From assembly GCF_026241095.1 (NCBI RefSeq), contig NZ_JAPFGB010000022.1, positions 1 to 64,000 on the forward strand: 64,000 bases of DNA, written 5' to 3'. A program made the translations under genes and the position numbers. Source of the stretch: Saccharopolyspora sp. NFXS83. GTDB lineage: Bacteria; Actinomycetota; Actinomycetes; Mycobacteriales; Pseudonocardiaceae. Under the pieces are notes generated by a model. That model was not told the origin of the DNA and did no database searches. It saw only the letters and a list, made by a program, of their open reading frames with translations. Below are positions 38,067-44,374 of this stretch, piece after piece; the first letter of the stretch is position 1; every line of letters starts with the position of its first letter.

Positions 38067-38312
38067 TCAGGGCAGCGGCAGCAGCTTCCCGGGGACTCCC
38101 GCGACGGAATCGAGCAGCCCGAGCACCGGGATGCCCAGCGGCGCGAAGGTCCACTTGTTGTGCAGGTCCCCGGTGTCCGGCTGGTCGACGATCACGACAC
38201 CGTCCTCTTCCGGGGCGGGCTGCGGTGCGGCGACGGCGGTCGCGGCGGACCCCAGCAGGGCGGTACCGACGAGTGCGGAGGCGGCGAGGCCGCGGCGCAA
38301 CGAGGCGTTCAT
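38067..38312 (-). CDS. small secreted protein (paired with 38335)
   Basis: 81 residues with a signal peptide (MNASLRRGLAASALVGTALLG, cleavage near AVA-APQPA, about residue 29). The mature part has an acidic start (EEDGVVIVDQPDTGD) then a hydrophobic Gly/Pro/Leu-rich end with PVLGLLDSVAGVPGKLLPLP. No cysteine. The ending resembles that of the neighbouring small protein (PVVGLLDALS). No family recognised. 22 bases separate it from the upstream gene, so they form one transcript. Confidence 0.72.
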   Translation of the reverse strand: MNASLRRGLAASALVGTALLGSAATAVAAPQPAPEEDGVVIVDQPDTGDLHNKWTFAPLGIPVLGLLDSVAGVPGKLLPLP

Positions 38313-38334: not shown

Positions 38335-38538
38335 TCAGCTCAGCGCGTCGAGCAGGCCGACGACGGGGTTGAGGGCGGCGGTGGGCAGACCGACGGTCGG
38401 GCTGAGCAGGCCGCCCGCGTCGACGCCGGGGATGATCCAGATGGACGGCGGTTCGGCCTGCGCGACACCGGCCCCTAGCCCGAGCAGGGCGAGACTCGTG
38501 ACGACCGCGGCCGTCACCCTGGCGGCACTTCTCGACAT
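38335..38538 (-). CDS. small secreted protein (paired with 38067)
   Basis: 67 residues: signal peptide to about residue 28 (AQA-EPPSI), then about 39 residues, IWIIPGVDAGGLLSP and NPVVGLLDALS, hydrophobic and Gly/Pro-rich, without cysteine. Strong AAGGAGA ribosome site before the ATG. Very short mature hydrophobic secreted peptides of this sort are common in filamentous actinomycetes; chaplins are a functional analogy only, and the chaplin cysteine/Gly-Asn pattern is absent. No family recognised. Confidence 0.7.
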   Translation of the reverse strand: MSRSAARVTAAVVTSLALLGLGAGVAQAEPPSIWIIPGVDAGGLLSPTVGLPTAALNPVVGLLDALS

Positions 38539-38745: not shown

Positions 38746-39993
38746 TCAGCAGACGGCGTCGGTGGGTTTCGGGTTTCCCAGGCCGAACAGGGGACGCAGC
38801 AGCAACCCGGCGTACGTGCCTGCGATGGCGAGCACGCCCCACAGCCAGCCGTGCAGGCTGAACGAGGCGATGCCGGAGAAGTAGGCGCCGATGTTGCAGC
38901 CGCCCGCGAGCCGAGCCCCGATTCCCATCAGGACGCCGCCGAGCACGGCGCCGACGGCGAGCCGCCACGGGATGCGGCGGTGCAGGACGAACGCGCCCGC
39001 AGCGGCGGAGGCGATCAACGCGCCGATCATGATCCCGAAATCCATCACCGAGATCTTGTCGGCCAGCACGGACGCGTCGAGCTTCGCGGCGTTCTCCGGA
39101 ATGGCCCAGAACGGGGCGTCGGAGATGTCGATGCCGATCCAGCCGAGGAACTTCGCGCCCCACAGCCCGAACGCCGAGGTGATGCCCCAGGGTCCGCCGG
39201 AGATGAACAGCGTCAGCGCGTTGAGCCCGGCGAGCAGCAGTGCCCCGGCCCACAGCGGCCAGGAACCGCGCAGCACCCGCAGCAGGCCTCGTGCGGTGGG
39301 CGGTGCTTCGACCGGCGGCGGGGTGCGGCGGCGTTCGACGGCCAGCGACACGGCGACGACCGCACCGATGATCACCAGGGAGATCAGCAGCGCGCCCGGA
39401 TACCCCAGCGGGGTGTCGGCGAACGACACGGTGGGCCCGGTCTTCTGCAGCGCGCTGATCCAGGGGGCGAGGAACGCGCTGAGCACGGATCCGGCGATGA
39501 ACCCGCCGAGCGTGTAGAGGATCGCGGTCTGACCGCTGCCGACGGCGAACAGCGTGCCGGAGGCGCACGAGCCGCCGACCTGCATGCCGACGCCGAACAG
39601 GAACGAGCCGAGGATCACGCCGAGGCCAGCGGGGGCGACGGTGCCTTCGGGCGCGCCGGACAGGCCGAGGCCCGCGCCGAGGATCACCGCGAACAGCGCG
39701 CAGGCCACGGCGAGCATCAGCATGTGCGCGCGCAGTGCCCGGCCTTGCCCGACGGCGACGAGCTGCCGCCACGCCGAGGTGAAGCCGAACCGGGAGTGGA
39801 ACAGCACGGTGCCGAGGGCGAGGCCGACGACGTAGAGCACCGCGAGCTTCCAGCCCGCCTCGTGGGCGACGGCGAGGCCGACGACGACGGCCAGCAGGAC
39901 GCCGATGGTGACGACGCCGGGCCGCGCGGGCGGAGCCGCGGGCGGTGCCGGCGGCGGGGTTCTCTGTTCGCTGATCGTGTCCACTGCGGACAT
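38746..39993 (-). CDS. YeeE/YedE (TsuA-like) sulfur-compound transporter
   Basis: 415 residues, about ten to twelve membrane segments. Two internal repeats each carry the conserved cysteine motif: GVGMQVGGSCASGTLF (Cys143) and ARLAGGCNIGAYFSG (Cys366). This is the YeeE/YedE family; TsuA/YeeE imports thiosulfate through a relay of cysteines, and YedE relatives are linked to selenium metabolism. ATG behind AAGGAGAG. It begins 17 bases after the Met-rich membrane gene, so the two are co-transcribed, and the SELENBP1-like gene is just upstream. No TusA/YeeD partner follows. Confidence 0.9.
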   Translation of the reverse strand: MSAVDTISEQRTPPPAPPAAPPARPGVVTIGVLLAVVVGLAVAHEAGWKLAVLYVVGLALGTVLFHSRFGFTSAWRQLVAVGQGRALRAHMLMLAVACALFAVILGAGLGLSGAPEGTVAPAGLGVILGSFLFGVGMQVGGSCASGTLFAVGSGQTAILYTLGGFIAGSVLSAFLAPWISALQKTGPTVSFADTPLGYPGALLISLVIIGAVVAVSLAVERRRTPPPVEAPPTARGLLRVLRGSWPLWAGALLLAGLNALTLFISGGPWGITSAFGLWGAKFLGWIGIDISDAPFWAIPENAAKLDASVLADKISVMDFGIMIGALIASAAAGAFVLHRRIPWRLAVGAVLGGVLMGIGARLAGGCNIGAYFSGIASFSLHGWLWGVLAIAGTYAGLLLRPLFGLGNPKPTDAVC

Positions 39994-40010
39994 GCGGGCT
40001 CTCCTTGGTT

Positions 40011-41765
40011 TCAGGGGGTCAGGGGGCCGGAGACGGCAACAACGGTGCCACGTGGAACCCACTGACCGGCAGGTTCGGAGCCGTGCATTCCGCCACTCAT
40101 CCCCGGCATGTTCATCTGCATCGCGTCGACCTTGGCGGAGGCGTAGACGACGACGGGGTCGTCGACGACCTGGCCGCGGGCGGCGAGCCAGGTGTCGAAC
40201 CCGGCGACCGACGGCGGTTCGCCGCCGAACGCCTCGGACAGCGCCATCCCGTATTCGAGGGAGCGGTAGTCGCGGGGGTCGAAGCGCAGCGGCACGGCGG
40301 AGCTGGCGGTGGCCGTCGTGACGGGGCTGTGCATCAGCCACGGCGCGAGGTGCACGCCGTAGAGGTGCAGCGGTGCCTCGTTCTGCGATGCCGCGATCGA
40401 ATCGAGGTGTTCGGCCGCGTGCGTCCAGCCGCCCACGAGGATCAGCGCGCGGTCGGGGTGCGGCGCGTCGCCGGTGGGCAGCCCGGCCTGCGCCGCCGCA
40501 GCGCGGACGACGTCCGCCGCCTGCCGGGAGCGCGGTGAGTCGTCGCCGAGCACGGTGATGCCGGGTGCGCCGTTGCGGTGGATGTAACCGACGAGTCCGC
40601 GCAGCGCCTCGGCGTCGTCGTCCGCGAGCGCCTCGGCGGGGCAGGAGTGCAGCGGTGCCCGCTGCCCGGCGACGAGTCCGGCGAGCGCGACGCTGGCGCA
40701 TTCCGGCCCGTCCTGTCCGGTGGCGCCGGGCACGGCCGGTCCGTCGCCGGTGTCGACTTCGACGCTGCCCTGCTCGTCACCGCCGGTGCGCCGCAGTTCG
40801 ATGTCGCTGCGCCCGGCGGGCAGGTCCACTTCGGCCCACGTCCCGGAGGTGCCGGGCCGGGGCTGCGCCCGCACGGGCGTGCCGCCGGCGTGGACGGTGA
40901 TGTCGTCGGTGACGCTGTCGGGCAGGTGCACCAGGTTGCGGCCGGGGCGGTGCGGGGTGATCAGCACCGGCACGTCCTGGTCGGCGACGACGGCGTGGGC
41001 GAGCCGCGGCACTCCGGGCAGCGGCAGTTCGCCCGGTTTCGGGATGCCGGGCAGCACGGTCCACGCGACGAACGCGACGGCGACGGCGGCGGCGCCGTAC
41101 CGGTAGATCCGCCAGGGGTCGCCGCGCCGCAGCAGCACCGCCACGCCCGCCACGACCAGGGCGGCGACGACGATGAGCAGCAGCACCGCGCCGAATCCGG
41201 TCAGCAGCCGCCGGTCGGCGACGCCGATGAGCACGAGCTGCACGGCGGCGGCCACGACGAGCACGGCGGCGAGCGCCAGGGCGAGCGGTCCGGGCCGCAG
41301 GCCGCCTTCGGAGCGCTGTTCGGGGGGCACGGTGAGCCCGATGCCGGTCAGCCCGAACCAGGTGACGACGGCCGCGGTGACGATGGTGGTGACGAAGAAC
41401 TCGGCGGGCGAGTGCCCGATGGCGCTCTCCACCACGACGAGCACGGTGAGCGCGAAGCCCAGGTAGGCGGCGGGGGTGGGCCACCGCAGCGCGATCGGCA
41501 GCGCCAGCAGCAGCACGGCGTGCAGCACCGCGACGATGCCGTTGACGTCGAGCACGGGGATCGACAGCAGGCTCGCCGCGGCGCCCGCTCCGGCCGCGGC
41601 CCAGGCCGTCCACGTCGTGGCGCGGCCGGTCGCGCGGACGGTGGGGCGCAGCAGTCCGAGCCCGGCGGCCACGGCGGTGCCCCCGAGCAGCAGCACGCGC
41701 AGCACCAGCCCCGCGGCGTCCACCCCGGCCACCCCGGTGCCCGAATGCATACCGCTCATGTCCAT
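40011..41765 (-). CDS. Met/His-rich multi-domain membrane protein
   Basis: 584 residues. Residues 1-9 (MDMSGMHSG) and 549-561 (MQMNMPGMSGGMH) are Met/His-rich like copper-binding motifs. Residues 15-238 hold about seven membrane helices, CopD-like in size. Residues 258-340 (VLITPHRPGRNLVHLPD...WAEVDLPAGRSDIEL) resemble a YtkA/CopC-type beta sandwich. Residues 355-545 (GDDSPRSRQAADVV, LYGVHLAPWL, EYGMALSEAFGGEPPSVAGFDTWL) look like a type 1 periplasmic-binding fold. These readings are by eye. No named family is certain. It lies between the SELENBP1-like and YeeE-like genes on one strand. Confidence 0.75.
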   Translation of the reverse strand: MDMSGMHSGTGVAGVDAAGLVLRVLLLGGTAVAAGLGLLRPTVRATGRATTWTAWAAAGAGAAASLLSIPVLDVNGIVAVLHAVLLLALPIALRWPTPAAYLGFALTVLVVVESAIGHSPAEFFVTTIVTAAVVTWFGLTGIGLTVPPEQRSEGGLRPGPLALALAAVLVVAAAVQLVLIGVADRRLLTGFGAVLLLIVVAALVVAGVAVLLRRGDPWRIYRYGAAAVAVAFVAWTVLPGIPKPGELPLPGVPRLAHAVVADQDVPVLITPHRPGRNLVHLPDSVTDDITVHAGGTPVRAQPRPGTSGTWAEVDLPAGRSDIELRRTGGDEQGSVEVDTGDGPAVPGATGQDGPECASVALAGLVAGQRAPLHSCPAEALADDDAEALRGLVGYIHRNGAPGITVLGDDSPRSRQAADVVRAAAAQAGLPTGDAPHPDRALILVGGWTHAAEHLDSIAASQNEAPLHLYGVHLAPWLMHSPVTTATASSAVPLRFDPRDYRSLEYGMALSEAFGGEPPSVAGFDTWLAARGQVVDDPVVVYASAKVDAMQMNMPGMSGGMHGSEPAGQWVPRGTVVAVSGPLTP

Positions 41766-41869
41766 CGAGAGAACCTCACTCCAGCAGAATTTCCCGGCGC
41801 AGCGGGGGAAATCAGGTGTCGCGCCCTGGCGAGATCAGCGTGCCGGGCTTGCGACGCACGTTCCGGGCA

Positions 41870-41915
41870 GGCATCGGTGGGAAGCGCGGTGTCGAACCGG
41901 CTCCCCACCGATGCC
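41870..41915 (-). terminator. hairpin between the SELENBP1-like and Met-rich genes
   Basis: Twelve-base perfect stem (41870-41881 with 41904-41915), extended inward by three pairs, seven bases past the SELENBP1-like stop. It would attenuate or end that transcript. Confidence 0.75.
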
Positions 41916-41921
41916 GCGGAC

Positions 41922-43754
41922 TTACTTCAGATCCTCATCCGCGACGACGAACAGTTCGGAGTGCGGTTTGGCGTTCCCGAACGGTCCGTGCGGCCACGAC
42001 TTCCGGTTGAAGTTGATCCCGGTCTCACCGGTCACTTCGTCCTTGAAGGTCTCGTCGACGCTGACCTTGCCGTCCTTGGCCAGGTCGACCATGTTGACCT
42101 TGTGGTCGCCGTCGAGTCCGGAACGGGCCACGAAGTAGTTCGACACGGCGAGCCTGCTCGGCTGCTTGGTCTCCTCGTAGCGTCCGTCGGCGCCTTCGGT
42201 GAAGTTGTCGTAGGCGCCCCAGTGCGGCCCCGCGCCCGGCTGTCCCGGGTTGATGGGTGCCGCGCCGGCCAGCGTCGGGCAGTCCTGGCCGCCACCGTTC
42301 TCCGCCTTCTCGACGGTGTCGATGGTGCACTTGAAGTCGGTCCCGGCGTTGACGATCTTGGAGACGTCCAGGGTGTAGACGCCACCGGTGGATCCGGGGT
42401 CGTCCGGGCCGAGCGCGCCCTTCTGCCGCCCCTGCACCGCGCGGTACAGGAACTTGTCGTCGGGGCTGGTCTGGATCCAGCCGCCGTTGGAGCTGCTGCC
42501 CCTGGCGTCGTTGTTGGCCGGGTCGATGGCCTTCAACGCCTGCCCGTCGTCGAAGACCTGGGTCCAGCGCGGCGCCGGTGCGGTGATGTCCGGCGTGTAG
42601 AACACCGCACCGCCCTGCATGGTCTGGGCGAACGCACCCTTGTGACCGGGCAGGTTGGTGACGGTCGTTTCCATCACCGCGCGGCTCTCGGAGTGCAGCG
42701 GGTCGGCGGGGTCGGCCCGCGGCCCGTCGGGCAGGTAGGACACGGCCCGCAGCTTGGGGTGGTTGCGGTCGGAGATGTCCCAGGTTCGGACGGTCGGCCT
42801 GCGCAGGTACGGCGACGGCTGCTTGACCGGGTCCAGGATGATGTTGCGGGGTTCCGCGTAGTCACTGGTGATCAGCGTGTCCAGGTCTTCGCGAGCCTGG
42901 ATGCCGTGCGGGTTGGCGCAGGTCGGCTTGCCGAGTCGCGGCAGGTTGTCGCACAGCTTCGGGTCGTCGCCCTGCGGTGTCGCCGCGGGGGATTGCGACA
43001 GCACCTTCCCGTTCGGGTCGAATCGCACGACTTCCCCGGGACTGCCCGCGAAACCATTTCCGACGTGCACGGATCCGTCGTCGTACCGGTAAGGACCGGG
43101 TGCGACGGGACCACCCATGTAGGTGCCGTAGGAAGTGCCGTCCGACAGCGTCCAATACGCGTCCGGAACGGAACCGCCGAGCGTCTGGGTCGGCAGGCTG
43201 ACGCCCTTGAGCTCCAGGTTCGGCAGTTTCGTGACGTCGAACGCGTAAGTGGCACCGAGGAACAGGGCACCGGCGAAAATGGTGTCGCCCTTGTGCCACA
43301 CGTATTGCATGTGGTGCGGCTCGTTCTCCACCAACGGCCCGACGGTCGCGGTGTTGACGACCTTGCCGTAGGTCGACGAACCCTTGGTCGCGTCGATGAC
43401 GGCGAGGAAGTCGGGACCGGGAAGGGCGTTCTTCACCTTGTCGACGGGGTTTCCGATCGAACCGGGAAGATTCTTCACGTCCTTGACGGCGGTGTCGGCG
43501 ATGTTCTCGTCACCGGCCCACACCACCAGCCATTCCTTGCGCTTGCCGTCGGCTGCTTTGGTGGCGTTCCGGCTCACGACATGGTTGGTGACCGAGTAGT
43601 TCTTGCCGTCGGCTCCGGGCACCTGATGCGTCGTGACCTGCACGTCCGCGTAGGCCTCGGTATCACCGACCGGCAGCGTGACGGCACCGACGGCGAGCAG
43701 CGCGGCGGCCACCCCGGTCAGTCCCTTGCGCCATGCACGCGACTGGGTTCTCAT
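41922..43754 (-). CDS. secreted SELENBP1/SBP56 (methanethiol oxidase) homologue
   Basis: 610 residues with a signal peptide (cleavage near AYA-DVQVT, residue 36). It aligns by eye with human SELENBP1 along its whole length: PDFLAVIDATKGSSTYGKVV, VENEPHHMQY (His147-His148, like ELHHSGW), a propeller strand ATYAFDV, LITSDYAEPRN (like MISTEWAAPN), TWDISDRNHPK, SPDDKFLY (like SLDDRFLY) and KPHSELFV near the end (His598, like LAHELRY). Members are copper-dependent methanethiol oxidases or selenium carriers. The selenium-binding CSSC is absent. ATG follows GGAGAGAAG directly. Larger than the usual 460-470 residues, with insertions. Confidence 0.85.
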   Translation of the reverse strand: MRTQSRAWRKGLTGVAAALLAVGAVTLPVGDTEAYADVQVTTHQVPGADGKNYSVTNHVVSRNATKAADGKRKEWLVVWAGDENIADTAVKDVKNLPGSIGNPVDKVKNALPGPDFLAVIDATKGSSTYGKVVNTATVGPLVENEPHHMQYVWHKGDTIFAGALFLGATYAFDVTKLPNLELKGVSLPTQTLGGSVPDAYWTLSDGTSYGTYMGGPVAPGPYRYDDGSVHVGNGFAGSPGEVVRFDPNGKVLSQSPAATPQGDDPKLCDNLPRLGKPTCANPHGIQAREDLDTLITSDYAEPRNIILDPVKQPSPYLRRPTVRTWDISDRNHPKLRAVSYLPDGPRADPADPLHSESRAVMETTVTNLPGHKGAFAQTMQGGAVFYTPDITAPAPRWTQVFDDGQALKAIDPANNDARGSSSNGGWIQTSPDDKFLYRAVQGRQKGALGPDDPGSTGGVYTLDVSKIVNAGTDFKCTIDTVEKAENGGGQDCPTLAGAAPINPGQPGAGPHWGAYDNFTEGADGRYEETKQPSRLAVSNYFVARSGLDGDHKVNMVDLAKDGKVSVDETFKDEVTGETGINFNRKSWPHGPFGNAKPHSELFVVADEDLK

Positions 43755-44374
43755 CTTCTCTCCGGTCTGTAACTGATTTCCACCAACGTCTCGACACCAT
43801 TTCTTCTCATTCGGACTACGGGATTCGGACACGCAGGTGTCCCCACAACCGGTTTCCCGATGATCAGAATCGAGTGGAAACCGCTTCAGGGCACACGGGG
43901 TCACCGGACCACGCGGTCGCGTTCCGGAATCGGATGAATCGACGAGCCGACGGGGTCGAAATCGGATCAGGGAAGAATGCGGCCCGATGCTGCTTTCCCG
44001 GCGTCCGGCACCCGTTCATGCGGCTGCCGATCCGGGGATGGATTTCGTCCGGATCGGGTGCTGGTCAGGTCATCGGAAACGACCGCGAAATGCGTTTGCT
44101 CAGCGGATCGACCGCGGATGCGCGGAACCGCGCCACCCCGGCGAACGCAGTAATCAGAAACTACGACAGAGGGCGCTGGATTGCTGCTGCAAATCTACGT
44201 GCAGGCGGACCACCAGAGTGGCGAACCTCGACATGCGATAGATCATGCGGCGCCTGCGCAGACGATGTCAACTGACCGACCACAGCATGAGATGAAGGCC
44301 GCGAATCCCAGGCGAAAGCATTGCGAAACGGCAACCATCACCCGGATGCGGGTACCGGCGATGAGCCGGACGAA
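43755..44374. other. gene-free stretch between the SELENBP1-like gene and the dapB unit
   Basis: About 620 bases, the longest gene-free part of the window. Open frames here have no conserved motifs and unlikely composition. It must contain the promoter of the SELENBP1-like gene near 43760-43850. A GACCACCAGAG motif at 44207-44217 also occurs beside the structured element (15974-15984). Nothing else recognised. Confidence 0.55.

Follow-up and report, generated by a model that had tools for sequence, protein, structure and literature searches.

An exported remote relative of SELENBP1 in a candidate leader-controlled sulfur-acquisition operon of Saccharopolyspora sp. NFXS83

What is the role of three adjacent genes, here called A, B and C, which lie in a 64,000-nucleotide stretch of the genome of Saccharopolyspora sp. 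NFXS83 (contig NZ_JAPFGB010000022.1; hereafter, the window) and of which A is a remote relative of the selenium-binding protein and methanethiol oxidase family? We conclude that A-B-C very probably serves sulfur assimilation, mainly because of a leader peptide encoded upstream of A and of the sulfur genes which, in different genomes, take each other's place next to A. The open reading frame (ORF) calls and translations show that the three minus-strand genes together fill positions 38746-43754 exactly, as claimed in a preliminary description of the locus. The features are as follows:

41922-43754, minus strand: gene A, 610 amino acids, predicted secreted propeller protein, remote SBP56/SELENBP1 relative
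40011-41765, minus strand: gene B, 584 amino acids, eight predicted membrane helices
38746-39993, minus strand: gene C, 415 amino acids, YeeE/YedE superfamily, candidate sulfur transporter
40080-40121, minus strand: Met/His-rich tail of B (residues 549-562), overlapping the low-confidence part of the B model
44154-44234, minus strand: leader-peptide ORF, 26 codons, with an HVDL...SALC motif and a Cys codon near its end
44242-44271, minus strand: promoter-like site TTGACA-18-CATGAT, from a motif search

Gene A starts with the ATG at 43754, and the intergenic gaps measure 156 nt (A-B) and 17 nt (B-C). The ATG of C falls inside a longer, mechanically called ORF, and long antisense ORFs are present over the locus, as expected because the DNA is rich in guanine and cytosine; homology favours the minus strand.

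The leader ORF emerged when the upstream DNA of the window was aligned with that of six relatives: the conserved block ahead of A reads as a 26-codon frame. In a set of 81 named loci, made up of the window and the top 80 of 91 A relatives, the HVDL...SALC motif was found upstream of A in 49 under a loose rule and in 47 under a strict one, with 0/81 under either rule on the antisense strand and 3/742 (loose) or 1/742 (strict) in other stretches taken from these loci. The promoter-like site preceding the ORF was found once, against a mean of 0.2 in shuffled sequences, and a transcript initiated just past it would have its 5' end on or close to the leader ATG. The window peptide matches the NCBIfam model for a "putative leader peptide", NF042934 (E 4.4e-5, 23.0 bits), as do the peptides of 2 relatives (23.8 and 25.2 bits). 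According to the available text of PMC1262725, cysteine leader peptides have been predicted before cys operons of several actinobacteria, and the accessible part of PMC9031893, citing Canestrari et al., describes attenuation in mycobacteria that responds to cysteine through leaderless ORFs carrying contiguous Cys codons. Like the cysteine-responsive leader peptides of actinobacteria (mycobacterial polycysteine upstream ORFs and NF042934), the window leader is a short ORF which precedes sulfur genes, carries a Cys codon close to its end and has a promoter-like site immediately ahead of it; it differs in having a single Cys, within the conserved HVDL...SALC motif, in place of a Cys run, and no attenuator structure was identified. 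With its one Cys codon, the leader is likely to sense cysteine, and its ORF is a candidate cysteine-responsive attenuator. No leader match was found upstream of A in L079, L081, L083 and other Pseudonocardiaceae loci, where the leader may have diverged or be placed differently.

The leader has siblings in the same genome. NF042934 matches 24 places at E up to 10, including 18 at E < 0.1, the window among them; 11 places pass the model's cut-off and the window place does not. The 17 sibling stretches (L226-L242) were followed by typing chosen downstream genes, and 9 of them precede, as the first or next same-strand gene, what we read as sulfur genes, with the sulfur-related NCBIfam matches all below cut-off except SfnG. 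These comprise an NMT1-like binding protein followed by an alkanesulfonate-monooxygenase-like gene (L226); TauE, with a UDP-sulfoquinovose-synthase-like gene close by on the other strand (L229); a pyridoxal-phosphate enzyme of Cys/Met metabolism (L230); an alkanesulfonate-monooxygenase-like gene (L233); sulfite reductase together with a PAPS_reduct-domain gene, CysD-like in look (L235); a rhodanese as the second gene (L238); an NtaA/DmoA-like monooxygenase, with 273.4 bits of the 279.7 cut-off (L240); SsuC-like and alkanesulfonate-monooxygenase-like genes (L241); and the dimethylsulfone monooxygenase SfnG, above cut-off (L242). A further 4 are compatible with sulfur, namely, an NMT1-like binding protein (L227), a luciferase-like monooxygenase (L228), a sodium:dicarboxylate-type symporter (L231) and a molybdopterin oxidoreductase (L232). 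A-B-C is thus one of several units behind an HVDL-type peptide, and most of these look sulfur-tied. DmoA makes methanethiol from dimethyl sulfide. The SfnG-, Ssu- and DmoA-like enzymes would degrade sulfones, sulfonates and sulfides within the cell, and A could handle thiols outside it, for example, methanethiol.

The genes next to A point in the same direction. At L138, L139, L143, L144 and L145, loci without an adjacent C, sulfite reductase stands beside A-B (one cluster, typed in L139; B was not called in L138 and L143). Sulfite reductase also lies behind A in L192, L193 (where B was not called) and L194, in 3 of the 3 Streptomyces genomes with A, and a divergent CysH-type gene is found upstream of A in L138, L139, L193 and L194. 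L193 additionally carries an APS kinase, a CysN-type GTPase and an NMT1-like binding protein. In Nocardioides (L129), A-B-C is preceded by a rhodanese protein, which also gave a weak, sub-threshold metallo-beta-lactamase match.

We surveyed 200 genomes of the same family, counting A when the match spanned at least 300 residues. Some A match was present in 70 genomes and a match of the required span in 67 (71 copies). B lies downstream on the same strand within 6 kb in 66 of the 71 copies (65/67 genomes), with an A-to-B distance of at most 188 nt in 59 of these 66, and because B directly follows A in 65/67 genomes, the adjacency is not due to chance; the rare adjacency that the preliminary description had named as a refutation is not seen for A-B. 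C is downstream on the same strand in 32/71 copies, with A-B-C on one strand in 32/67 genomes; in a further 15/71 copies it lies no more than 7 kb away but on the other strand. Anywhere in the genome, C was found in 61/67 genomes with A and 31/133 without (Fisher p 4e-21, ignoring kinship). In the named loci, B was called in 72/81; the locus counts of B and C are lower bounds because antisense ORFs are sometimes called as genes (in the window this affects C; in L138, L143 and L193 it apparently affects B), whereas the family survey is unaffected. Some locus records are the same and not independent (L192 = L145, L198 = L140, L200 = L139, L205 = L118). The A of L066, from Saccharopolyspora, is 89% identical to that of the window, and A is rare in the genus of G222, which we take to be Streptomyces (3/199 genomes). 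In a 450-base stretch of G110 (C1:2558197-2558646), two A pieces are found together with the C-terminal 26 residues of C, a remnant that looks like the deletion of the middle of an A-B-C operon.

What, then, could the 3 proteins do? The preliminary description had proposed a secreted sulfur/copper system, with A as a copper methanethiol oxidase, B as a supplier or sensor of copper and C as the importer of a product, read here as thiosulfate or sulfide. A has a single hydrophobic N-terminal segment (residues 11-30), read as an export signal, and Foldseek retrieved as its top match the SBP56 structure 2ece (E 2.9e-17), with which it shares a beta-propeller fold; the expectation of an exported propeller protein is thereby supported. 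The family relationship is remote. With hhalign, the A family aligns with 15 SBP56 proteins at E 1.6e-9, and 26 of 26 A relatives match the SBP56 profile at E up to 1 (best E 1.3e-5). A itself reaches only 15.7 bits with Pfam SBP56 (PF05694; cut-off 34) and 20.8 bits with NCBIfam MtoX (cut-off 650). The "SELENBP1 homologue" of the preliminary description thus stands in this remote sense only, with both curated cut-offs missed.

The metal site is partly kept. In the available text of the respective papers, human SELENBP1 requires H73, H74, H137, H140, D189 and E252 (PMC10362175), and H89, H90, H140 and H412 are named for the methanethiol oxidase of Hyphomicrobium, which is described as a copper enzyme of the periplasm that has SCO1/senC and mauG as neighbours (PMC5739008). 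By hhalign, H147/H148 of A align with H67/H68 of SBP56, equivalent to the human pair H73/H74, and are invariant in two alignments (18/18 and 26/26 A proteins); E362 aligns with SBP56 E245, equivalent to human E252, and is invariant in 26/26 proteins and conserved at 90% or more in the alignment of 18. The HxxH motif is not kept, with human H137 replaced by D198 and H140 by W201. The column of human D189 holds P282 in A, with an invariant H283 (26/26) one column away, and H511 takes the place of the Q in GGPQ, an SBP56 motif. H598, near the C-terminus and outside the alignment, may be the counterpart of the final His of SBP56. The human residue numbers would fall on these A columns as judged by motif order and near-constant offsets. 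The metal site of A thus looks like a variant of the SBP56 site, which perhaps uses another metal or substrate. A resembles MtoX/SELENBP1 in its propeller fold, His-His pair, one Glu ligand and sulfur context, and bacterial MtoX is exported, as is predicted for A; by contrast, A is under both cut-offs, has lost HxxH (the first His changed to Asp), is about 150 residues longer and has partners that are not SCO1/senC or mauG by Pfam and NCBIfam. The score against MtoX and the loss of part of the human ligand set argue against A being a methanethiol oxidase. Even for the known methanethiol oxidases the product is disputed, because some yield sulfane sulfur rather than sulfide, according to the available text of PMC10936201.

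B has a layout of eight predicted membrane helices (residues 17-240), a beta domain (254-338) and an alpha/beta domain (350-545), which by fold (VIA) may resemble a type-I periplasmic binding protein. Searches gave no PDB sequence match and, in Pfam and NCBIfam, no SCO1-like match. The outer domain may share the predicted fold of AmiC/LivK, from which B differs in that the domain is fused behind eight membrane helices and that the trio lacks an ATP-binding cassette transporter gene. The Met/His-rich ends which had suggested copper supply are in part confirmed: Met plus His make up 19.5% of the tails versus 2.7% over whole B proteins (69 of 72 B proteins taken in), and many B relatives have a Met/His-rich N-terminus, but the richest 18-residue Met/His stretch lies within the last 75 residues in only 44/69. 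B does not appear to be a mere copper donor.

C belongs to the YeeE/YedE proteins with two cysteine motifs, as first described, passing Pfam Sulf_transp with 229 bits (cut-off 27) and carrying GGSCASG and GGCNIG, which correspond to two of the three TsuA cysteines. TsuA is its closest PDB relative, and C reaches 85.9 bits of the 400 required by the TsuA equivalog model. Aligned to TsuA (6leo), the first cysteine is replaced by G70, and the other two are represented by C143 and C366; G70, C143, C366 and the C-terminal C415 are invariant in 20/20 C proteins (the window C plus 19 picked from a cluster of 28). In TsuA and SoxT, the three cysteines are conserved and required, and one on the outer face touches thiosulfate, as stated in the available portions of PMC11073785 and PMC11582611. 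C thus shares with them the Sulf_transp family and two of the three channel cysteines, and with SoxT the coupling, proposed for C, to an outer sulfur-handling step; it differs in the Gly at the first cysteine and the extra invariant C-terminal Cys. The cysteine missing from C is presumably the outer, thiosulfate-contacting one of TsuA. Because of this replacement by Gly, thiosulfate is a doubtful cargo. Immediately downstream of C are 2 small ORFs with signal-like starts, 38067-38312(-) and 38335-38538(-), of 81 and 67 amino acids, the former being a member of a small-protein cluster present in 15 loci.

The copper methanethiol oxidase version is consistent with the SBP56 fold and the retained His-His pair and Glu of A, the Met/His-rich tail of B and the NtaA/DmoA-like monooxygenase headed by a sibling leader, but the MtoX score and lost HxxH of A, the first cysteine absent from C and the lack of SCO1 likeness in B make it unlikely. 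Of the secreted sulfur/copper system as first described, the sulfur role is retained on the strength of the leader peptide and the sulfur neighbours, whereas the MtoX identity and the thiosulfate cargo are not. It is still less probable that A is non-catalytic and forms with B an outer binding or sensing pair for sulfur (or selenium) compounds which controls or feeds C; such a receptor role is difficult to reconcile with the conserved His/Glu set of A and its homology to an enzyme family, and A occurs without B in some genomes. A system for handling copper, with sulfur chemistry only incidental to it, suggested by the Met/His tail of B and the Met/His N-terminus of many relatives, is highly improbable in view of a leader common to sulfur genes, the sulfur-reduction neighbours and the absence of copper-family matches in A, B or C (Pfam, NCBIfam).

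We return to sulfur scavenging, for which the following scheme can be proposed. When charged Cys-tRNA is low, ribosomes would slow on the leader peptide, which would allow read-through of the 400-nt leader into A-B-C. Exported A would act outside the membrane as a metal-dependent oxidase of an organosulfur compound, most likely a small thiol, and release sulfur in inorganic or sulfane form. Anchored next to A, B would bind the substrate or product through its binding-protein-like domain, and its Met/His tail may provide metal to A. C would bring the freed sulfur in via its two remaining channel cysteines and the terminal cysteine, to be used in making cysteine. Where C is not adjacent, some lineages have the A-B pair next to sulfite-reduction genes. 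We consider such a cysteine-controlled sulfur-scavenging operon the probable arrangement, with less assurance than the sulfur role itself; methanethiol as the main substrate of A is conceivable, though we rather doubt it.

Several observations weigh against this account. The leader is not seen in 32/81 loci, including all those from Streptomyces, Actinomadura and Nocardioides; the window peptide (21.1 bits in the genome search) stays below the NF042934 cut-off of 27; it has one Cys codon and no run; and a search for a terminator found none. NF042934 also matches in 10/14 control genomes, weakly and never above cut-off, and therefore weak matches alone mean little. Of the siblings, L234 (downstream gene without an NCBIfam match) and L237 (metabolite/H+ symporter) show no sign of sulfur, L236 has a PdxR-like regulator as the second gene, and L239, near a contig end and left out of typing, is counted here as well. 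Within 6 kb, 5/71 A copies lack B and, within 7 kb, 24/71 lack C, and the co-occurrence statistics of A and C do not account for kinship. No B is seen in the 3 distant relatives L195-L197; in L203, A comes after a molybdenum-cofactor protein and a 2Fe-2S protein, without B, and L204 resembles it by sequence (other redox genes beside A, no B). The scores of A under both the SBP56 and MtoX cut-offs and the loss of HxxH belong to the same side.

A-family proteins are also found in other settings. An aldehyde-oxidising partner at L203/L204 would suit a formaldehyde-releasing reaction of A. In L198, L199, L201 and L202, A paralogues lie within apparent natural-product clusters, with two in tandem in L198. 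Neighbours typed there include an NDP-hexose 2,3-dehydratase, a homocysteine S-methyltransferase and a class-V aminotransferase (L198), a class-V aminotransferase (L199), and carboxylesterases and a berberine-bridge-type oxidase (L202); a glycosyltransferase near these paralogues was labelled from sequence starts only. These paralogues possibly do sulfur chemistry in biosynthesis.

Searches of the open-licence PMC literature, to the extent that its text was available, returned no description of the A-B-C trio, in agreement with the earlier view that it is undescribed in actinomycetes, none of an HVDL-type peptide as a sulfur signal, and, among the papers listed and as judged by titles and the opening of abstracts, no match to the trio for methanethiol oxidase with Streptomyces or YeeE/thiosulfate with actinobacteria; nothing was found there on a selenium-binding protein in Saccharopolyspora or on DUF6239. 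A-B-C is best regarded as a variant way of acquiring sulfur, assembled from proteins remotely related to known families. Whether an exported SBP56-superfamily enzyme with a rewired metal site, which would open up an organosulfur substrate outside the membrane, a receptor-like B, which would pass the sulfur on, a two-cysteine YeeE-type C, which would import it, and a cysteine-sensing HVDL...SALC leader marking a genome-wide sulfur regulon amount to an undescribed actinomycete route of sulfur acquisition is a nearly balanced question, with the odds slightly against. If so, a role would be assigned to a common, unnamed gene pair, A-B, in a group with many antibiotic producers; A would add to the SELENBP1 superfamily a new branch whose metal site is altered, a comparator for enzymes whose product is disputed; and the HVDL-type leader would mark a sulfur regulon at the sequence level, by which other actinomycete genes of unknown function could be assigned.

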